DNA from: Acidobacteriota bacterium
GTDB taxonomy: Bacteria > Acidobacteriota > Vicinamibacteria > Vicinamibacterales > Fen-181
NCBI GenBank assembly: GCA_017883185.1
Contig: JADGOB010000022.1
Span: forward strand, 1 to 40,243
DNA: 40,243 bases
Reading direction: 5' to 3'
The position numbers and the translations under genes are program-made. The notes under the pieces are model-generated. The model saw nothing but the letters and a program-made list of their open reading frames with translations, made no database searches and had not been told where the DNA came from. Each line of letters opens with the position of its first letter. Within the stretch, counting starts at the first letter, position 1. Below are positions 20,842-22,389 of this stretch, piece after piece.

Positions 20842-21954
20842 CTACGCCTCCCAGGGCAACCCCGCCTTGCCGAAGTGGCCGTAGTTGGTCGTCGAGCGGT
20901 AGATCGGCTGCAGGAGGTTCAGCTGCTCGATGATCGCCGCCGGGCGAAAATCGACCGTGTCGAGGAACCGCCGTGCCGCGCGCTCGTCGCCCGTGCCGTA
21001 CGTATCGACCTTGGTGGACACCGGCTGCGCCTGGCCGATGGCGTACGCCACCTGCACCTCGGCGCGGCGGGCGATCCCGGCCTTCACGATCTGCCGGGCC
21101 ACGTAGCGGCCAAAGTACGCACCGCTGCGGTCCACCTTCGACGGGTCCTTGCCGCTGAAGGCGCCGCCCCCATGATGCGCCGCCCCGCCGTAGGTGTCCA
21201 CGATGATCTTGCGCCCCGTGACGCCGCAGTCTGCGGACGGGCCGCCGATCGCGAAGCAGCCGGTCGGGTTGACCAGCACCTGCACCTTCGGCGTGAACCA
21301 CTCGCCGAGGACGCGCGGCGCCAGGTACGTGGCCACGTAGTCGTAGATCTCCGGGTGCCTGGTCTCGGCGGCGTGCTGGGTGGAGACGAGGACGCACGTC
21401 ACGCCCACGGGGGTGCCGTTCTCGTATTCGACCGACACCTGGGACTTGGCATCCGGGCGCAGCCATGGGTACTTTCCGCCACGGCGATCGTCCGCGAGCC
21501 CGCGCGTCAGTCTGTGCGCCAGCAGGATGGGCAGCGGCATCATCTCGGGCGTTTCCGCCGTGGCGTAGCCGAACATCATCCCCTGGTCGCCGGCGCCCTG
21601 CTCCTTGTCGAGCCCGCGCCCCTCGTCCACGCCCTGCGAGATGTTGTCCGACTGCTTCGAGACGTAGTTGAACACCTGCACGCGGTCGGCATGGAACGCG
21701 TCACCATCGTACAGGTAGCCGATCTCGCGGATCGCCTGCCGCGCGACCGCCTCGTGATTAACGGTCGCCTTCGACGAGATCTCGCCCGCGATCACGACCT
21801 TGTCGTCCTTGCACATGACCTCGCACGCCACGCGGCTGCGCGAGTCGCCGGCCAGGTACGCATCCAGGATCGAATCGGCGATGTAGTCGCAGACCTTGTC
21901 GGGATGGCCTTCGGAAACGGATTCGGACGTCAGCGTGTGTCTCAGATTCTGCAT
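20842..21954 (-). CDS. metK: S-adenosylmethionine synthase
   Basis: 370-residue enzyme making SAM from methionine and ATP. Motifs: GHPDK at residues 16-20, GDQGMMFGYA, and GGGAFSGKDPSKVDRSGAY, with the catalytic Asp and Lys residues in place. Slightly shorter than the usual 380-400. AGGAG just before ATG 21954 sets the start. tnaA follows after 66 bases, so the two may share a transcript. About 280 bases of non-coding sequence lie between this start and a terminator-ended RNA candidate on the same strand (22235-22350). None of the known SAM riboswitch signatures I can recall fits the leader. Confidence 0.95.
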   Translation of the reverse strand: MQNLRHTLTSESVSEGHPDKVCDYIADSILDAYLAGDSRSRVACEVMCKDDKVVIAGEISSKATVNHEAVARQAIREIGYLYDGDAFHADRVQVFNYVSKQSDNISQGVDEGRGLDKEQGAGDQGMMFGYATAETPEMMPLPILLAHRLTRGLADDRRGGKYPWLRPDAKSQVSVEYENGTPVGVTCVLVSTQHAAETRHPEIYDYVATYLAPRVLGEWFTPKVQVLVNPTGCFAIGGPSADCGVTGRKIIVDTYGGAAHHGGGAFSGKDPSKVDRSGAYFGRYVARQIVKAGIARRAEVQVAYAIGQAQPVSTKVDTYGTGDERAARRFLDTVDFRPAAIIEQLNLLQPIYRSTTNYGHFGKAGLPWEA

Positions 21955-22234: not shown

Positions 22235-22350
22235 AAAACAAAAGGGCTTCGCAACAGGTGTCGCGAGCCCTGGCCGCGACTTAGATGGTCATTGCGTTGT
22301 CTCCAGCCGTGGCTGGCGCGCGGCCCATCAAGTCGAAAAAATCGCCGCGC
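22235..22350 (-). ncRNA. Candidate structured RNA upstream of metK
   Basis: On the minus strand a promoter-like site (22360-22389) is followed by about 115 bases that fold well. CGACTTGATGG (22335-22325) can pair with CCATCTAAGTCG (22288-22277) with one bulge. The pair encloses a hairpin with 5-bp stem CCAGC/GCTGG. A stem GGGCTCGC...GCGAAGCCC (22270-22244) followed by TTTTGTTTT (22243-22235) ends it like an intrinsic terminator. It could be a free small RNA or an attenuating leader of metK, which starts 281 bases downstream. I do not recognise it as a known SAM riboswitch, SRP RNA or 6S RNA. Confidence 0.4.
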
Positions 22351-22359
22351 CGATCTATA

Positions 22360-22389
22360 AATATGCCCGCTGATGCAGGCCAAAGTCAA
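22360..22389 (-). promoter_or_regulatory. Promoter for the RNA candidate upstream of metK
   Basis: Minus strand TTGACT (22389-22384), then CATATT (22365-22360) after 18 bases, within an AT-rich patch ATATTTATAGAT that stands out from the GC-rich surroundings. Transcription would begin at about 22350 and run through the structured segment. Confidence 0.5.

Follow-up and report, generated by a model that had tools for sequence, protein, structure and literature searches.

In this work we have investigated the leader of metK in a window of 40,243 nucleotides from the genome of a soil bacterium of the Vicinamibacterales (Acidobacteriota). On the minus strand, at 22353-22235, lies a unit of promoter, structured RNA and terminator which is conserved in the Vicinamibacterales and in Gemmatimonadota. 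This RNA probably combines the aptamer and the expression platform of an OFF riboswitch which shuts down metK transcription in response to SAM, the main methyl donor of the cell, and represents a distinct variant of the SAM-II/SAM-V type. The gene that it would regulate encodes S-adenosylmethionine synthetase (20842-21954 on the minus strand; NCBIfam TIGR01034, 469 bits), begins at 21954, 281 bases beyond the RNA as an earlier note on this DNA had reckoned, and is followed by a tryptophanase-like gene.

Results

The -35 box TTGACT (22389-22384) and the -10 box CATATT (22365-22360), with an 18-base spacer, are present on the minus strand as the earlier note had claimed, and promoters with at least 8 of 12 matches stand at the same place in 60 of 80 relatives, against 2.3 expected from shuffles. 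Judging from the promoter spacing, transcription would start near 22353. The intrinsic terminator proposed in the same note (22271-22234, minus strand) was also borne out: a stem at 22271-22243 of -19.2 kcal/mol is followed by TTTTGTTTT, with the U tract at 22243-22235, and 72 of the 80 relatives have a terminator, compared with 10.9 expected. The idea of an RNA with its own promoter and terminator thus holds for both of these signals, but the element is better described as a cis-acting leader, of which the RNA of about 119 nt is the would-be terminated product. When the sequence is folded by itself the z-score is only moderately low (-2.04), and the case for the RNA therefore rests on comparative evidence.

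The comparison was based on a structural alignment of 80 distinct copies. P1 is formed by GCGCGGC (22350-22344) and GCCGCGC (22324-22318), and each of its seven pairs shows compensatory changes. The 5' strand is followed by a third strand, GAUUU (22343-22339), corresponding to U10-U12 of SAM-II, which has UUU in 76 of the 80 copies and GGG in 4; the UUU strand is expected to form a major-groove triplex. The 5' strand of P2, CGACUUGAUGG (22335-22325, with the equivalents of U20, U21 and G22 at 22331, 22330 and 22329), adjoins the 3' strand of P1 without a linker and pairs with CCAUCUAAGUCG (22288-22277). Exactly this long-range pairing had been pointed out before, and it proved to be an 11-bp helix of -13.1 kcal/mol, with a bulged U at 22283, equivalent to U44; A45 and A46 have their counterparts at 22282 and 22281, and the position of A47 is taken by G22280. 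As the P2 5' strand lies within the P1 loop, the fold is an H-type pseudoknot. Four P2 pairs show double changes, one of them being U-A in 44 copies, C-G in 27 and A-U in 1, and the cells of P1 and P2 together are paired in 98.3% of cases, in contrast to 30-47% when the strands are slid against each other. The core pairs of P2 are nearly invariant, an invariance which is somewhat overstated because part of the 80 copies was gathered by a pattern that fixed part of this core. The loop that joins P1 to P2 holds a further hairpin, P3 (CCAGC/GCUGG, 22316-22303), whose sequence varies while the hairpin is kept; in 75 such loops the mean stability was -11.0 kcal/mol, against -5.3 kcal/mol for shuffles. 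The earlier note had made the existence of the RNA depend on conservation and covariation in relatives, and both were found. Three features had escaped it, namely the P1 hairpin (22350-22344/22324-22318), the antiterminator (22280-22275/22265-22260) and, within the 281-base gap, an S-box-like element. In one relative (locus L020, G039:C28) a MITE-like element of some 190 bp has inserted into the 3' strand of P2 and divides the aptamer; it carries terminal inverted repeats (GGACCCTGGCCGGAATA) and has CTAAG duplications on both sides.

How could such a fold control transcription? The antiterminator hairpin (22280-22260, minus strand) consists of GUCGCG (22280-22275), which shares bases with the 3' strand of P2, and CGCGAC (22265-22260), which is part of the terminator's 5' arm, and it excludes both of these structures. 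The complement of a leader's own GUCGCG hexamer occurs within 45 bases after the aptamer in 59 of 80 leaders, compared with 21.2 expected; this is a pooled test, and the shuffle test per leader is individually weak. For the nascent RNA up to 22259 the minimum free energy structure is exactly P1, P3 and the antiterminator, and the full-length RNA folds with the terminator. Mutually exclusive folds of this kind follow the logic of a transcription switch that a ligand would turn off.

When 60 relatives were searched with the intergenic region, the block 22350-22234 was matched immediately before metK in genomes from several families of the order. Scanning GTDB genomes with an exact pattern gave more members in Acidobacteriota (Vicinamibacteria) and Gemmatimonadota, together with random matches elsewhere; about 12 of the 43 matches were rejected as random, as P1 was unpaired and they came from unrelated phyla. 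A covariance model, R1, was built on the P1 pairs only; its real members have scores of more than about 30 bits, and matches below this value lay inside coding sequence and were discarded as false. With R1, clear members turned up in about 45 of the 162 genomes examined from the order and in about 30 of the 249 from Gemmatimonadota, with almost none elsewhere in Acidobacteriota. Among the genomes searched, the RNA is essentially confined to Vicinamibacterales and Gemmatimonadota, and the viral contigs searched held no credible copies.

The genes downstream accord with the SAM-related control element that had been proposed from the position before metK. Gene context was counted for 81 distinct copies, and 62 of them lie upstream of methionine or SAM biosynthesis genes (metK 49, metY/metZ 8, metX 3, osmC-metZ 2). 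In three of the 49 metK copies a second element, described below, stands between the aptamer and metK. In another 13 of the 81 copies this second element comes next and is followed by non-methionine genes, and the remaining 6 fall outside these groups; one of them (L151) has a peroxiredoxin-like gene downstream. We also noticed that an intergenic segment at 22538-22495 of the window has copies of 80-90% identity in several genomes of the order, and possibly represents a dispersed intergenic repeat. In a near relative (G001:C181, 3064-7034) the metK leader, otherwise 97% identical, lies about 4 kb away from the upstream gene.

The second element of the window (22206-22081, minus strand) aligns with positions 1-108 of the S-box (SAM-I) family RF00162 at 33.0 bits (E 5e-6), below the gathering cut-off of 44.4; an intermediate copy from Gemmatimonadota reaches 42.3 bits, which is also below it. 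The recognition is reciprocal, as a model made from this element alone finds canonical S-boxes with E-values down to 6e-9. We regard it as a diverged S-box aptamer. It shares with the S-box the full-length alignment, the J1/2 sequence AAGAG, a kink-turn-like P2, a pseudoknot between the P2 loop and J3-4, a P3 with CCA(n)ACC/GGUGG, and the SAM-contact nucleotides. In the RF00162 alignment it keeps A6, U7, G11, C44, A45, A46, U57, G58, A87 and U88, whose numbers we take to be those of the SAM-I structure. It differs from the S-box in that A45 and A46 are usually separated by one more base, in an additional 5' hairpin, and in its position immediately ahead of the ribosome-binding site of varied genes. 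In relatives the 3' end of the element lies just before the Shine-Dalgarno sequence and start codon, which suggests translational control there; in the window, metK begins about 90 bases beyond the element, with its own Shine-Dalgarno sequence. One relative (G005) has an S-box alone before metK. Two other views of the element were abandoned. There was no HEARO match that would make it a HEARO/omega-RNA, and a kissing pairing between its loop and its tail was only modestly better for own than for swapped pairs (24/35 vs 39%).

Discussion

Could a leader without any match to the known SAM families nevertheless belong among them? Thirteen nucleotides are invariant in SAM-II, namely U10-U12, U20, U21, G22, C23, G42, C43, U44, A45, A46 and A47; U11 and U21 contact the sulfonium, U44 the adenine and A47 the amino-acid end (PMC3764141). 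Ten of these (U10-U12, U20, U21, G22, C43, U44, A45 and A46) are present in 76-80 of our 80 copies. The RNA resembles SAM-II (RF00521, SAM_alpha; 2QWY) in the H-type P1/P2 pseudoknot with a U-rich L1, in the GAUUU sequence straight after P1, in its transcription-terminating platform and in its association with methionine/SAM genes. It differs by the replacement of A47 by G (79 of 80 copies), of the C23-G42 pair by A-U in most copies and of GAUUUG by GAUUUC, by the P3 hairpin in L3, and by a P2 without the noncanonical stretch. With A47 and C23-G42 altered, the RNA would have to read the amino-acid end of its ligand in another way. An enlarged loop is also known from the SAM-II long loops (RF01726), which were described in Bacteroidetes and marine sequence (PMC2864571), although our RNA does not match that family.

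Rfam, read at the gathering cut-off and in wide E-value scans, returned nothing relevant; the wide scans are weak negatives, as the one made of this region failed to pick up the S-box, which had an E-value of 5e-6 in a scan of 211 nt. Narrow scans of 131-161 nt were therefore used for SAM-II, and RF00521, RF01726 and RF01826 gave no match in them. RF00521 likewise had no match at these loci in 60 relatives, while it did detect a true SAM-II elsewhere in a relative, G020. Matches to p27_CRE, ctRNA_p42d, isrD and S4-Bacteroidia were far below the cut-off or in the wrong context and were set aside. Conversely, a true SAM-II escapes model R1, and with neither model recognising the other's RNA, the kinship rests on anatomy.

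The anatomy is also that of SAM-V (RF01826; 6FZ0), in which the strands follow the order P1, third strand, P2, directly P1, P3 stem-loop and P2 (PMC6061858). Our RNA has the identical order, with the 5' strand of P2 running straight into the 3' strand of P1, and likewise a bulged U in P2 and a UU/AA core. In SAM-V, A50 is the counterpart of A47 in SAM-II (PMC6061858), and the A18.A50 pair that anchors the aminoacyl end is replaced here by C-G in 63 and U-G in 16 of the 80 copies. Further differences from SAM-V are that P2 is an 11-bp helix interrupted only by the bulged U, that a terminator is found in place of a Shine-Dalgarno sequence in or next to P2, and that the RNA occurs in other phyla, without an RF01826 match. 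That the earlier note recognised no known SAM riboswitch class is in keeping with the Rfam families, but the pseudoknot core is recognisably that of SAM-II and SAM-V. Our best reading of the sequence comparison is that the RNA would work like SAM-II and SAM-V; by the criteria tested it belongs to neither as now defined, and it is a sister variant. No earlier report of it was found in the open-access papers searched.

We consider SAM to be the likely ligand and propose the following mechanism. At low SAM, the nascent RNA would form P1, P3 and the antiterminator GUCGCG/CGCGAC, which would block the terminator and allow transcription of metK. At high SAM, the ligand would sit in the P2 helix, with the adenine at the bulged U22283 and the sulfonium at the U.A-U triples of the UUU strand. 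Bound SAM would stabilise the P2 pseudoknot, and its 3' strand (AAGUCG) would then be lost to the antiterminator, so that the terminator could form and the RNA of about 119 nt would be released. The S-box-like element at 22206-22081 would probably subject readthrough transcripts to a further control by SAM. The 281 bases that lie between the RNA and metK in the window speak against this mechanism. If this is true, the RNA is a third branch of the SAM-II/SAM-V superfamily, it covers methionine control in two large, little-studied soil phyla, and it offers a natural test of a pocket which lacks the amino-acid anchor A47 and still serves SAM-synthesis genes.

More questions are raised by the four copies with GGG (L136-L139, from G058, G364, G365 and G366). 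GAGGGG replaces GAUUU in them, P1 and P2 are kept, and the second element always comes next, followed by other genes and never by a met gene. In two of them, L138 and L139, a MoxR-type AAA ATPase gene comes after the variant. Tandem true SAM-II switches also stand before a MoxR-type ATPase gene in G020:C10 (L074, 2873-2724, minus strand), the first with a terminator and the second, which was matched only partly, at the Shine-Dalgarno sequence. The ligand of the GGG subgroup may have changed, and these RNAs are perhaps a natural specificity switch; more prosaically, they could be degraded switches. Perhaps, then, the pseudoknot has diversified into sub-classes, with the main group, which carries G47, having rebuilt the amino-acid pocket for SAM or binding a SAM derivative, and the GAGGGG group binding a ligand other than SAM. 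We find this unlikely, though worth keeping in mind, as sub-classes with different ligands would amount to a new riboswitch class on the SAM-II scaffold.

Another alternative is that the switch works as described and its natural ligand is a relative of SAM such as SAH, methylthioadenosine or decarboxylated SAM, or methionine itself, the change at A47 reflecting altered specificity as in known variant riboswitches. The substitution in 79 of 80 copies, the loss of C23-G42 and the GGG subgroup, which lacks the U triple that senses the sulfonium and stands before no met gene, would fit this, and SAM-I variants that sense spermidine are a precedent (PMC10853860). However, the main group precedes metK, metX, metY and metZ, all of which SAM would be expected to repress, and it retains both the UUU strand for the sulfonium and the bulged U for the adenine; we consider such a ligand unlikely. 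It is highly improbable that the leader acts in cis without a small molecule, as a protein-bound or translation-coupled attenuator, or that the terminated RNA acts mainly in trans. The conserved promoter and terminator would indeed delimit a separate RNA of about 119 nt, and SAM-II leaders of S. meliloti accumulate as small RNAs (PMC9373788), but a covarying pseudoknot with SAM-II pocket nucleotides, an antiterminator exclusive with that pseudoknot and a fixed place ahead of met genes in two phyla speak against both possibilities. The modest folding z-score might have suggested that promoter, hairpin and terminator are mere chance resemblances in GC-rich intergenic DNA, but this is refuted by the conservation, covariation and common gene context across two phyla.

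Returning to the SAM-responsive switch, the metK leader is, as far as its sequence allows us to judge, a tandem of two unrelated and presumably SAM-binding aptamers. Few similar tandems have been described; seven examples of SAM-II before SAM-I/IV have been counted, and leaders with SAM-II and SAM-V in tandem are also known (PMC9481103). As in those tandems, a SAM-II-type switch with a terminator is followed by a different SAM aptamer on one leader; unlike them, it is made up of two variants, and both putative SAM-sensing elements of this metK leader are missed when Rfam is read at its cut-offs. S-box-like elements were also seen directly before diverse non-methionine genes in Gemmatimonadota (L037, L153, L156, L157, L211 and others), among them a recurrent RPxSYW family without a Pfam match, an SNF2 helicase and short unknown proteins. 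At another locus (L217, 1849-1501, minus strand) a more canonical-looking S-box is directly followed by a diverged S-box-like element.
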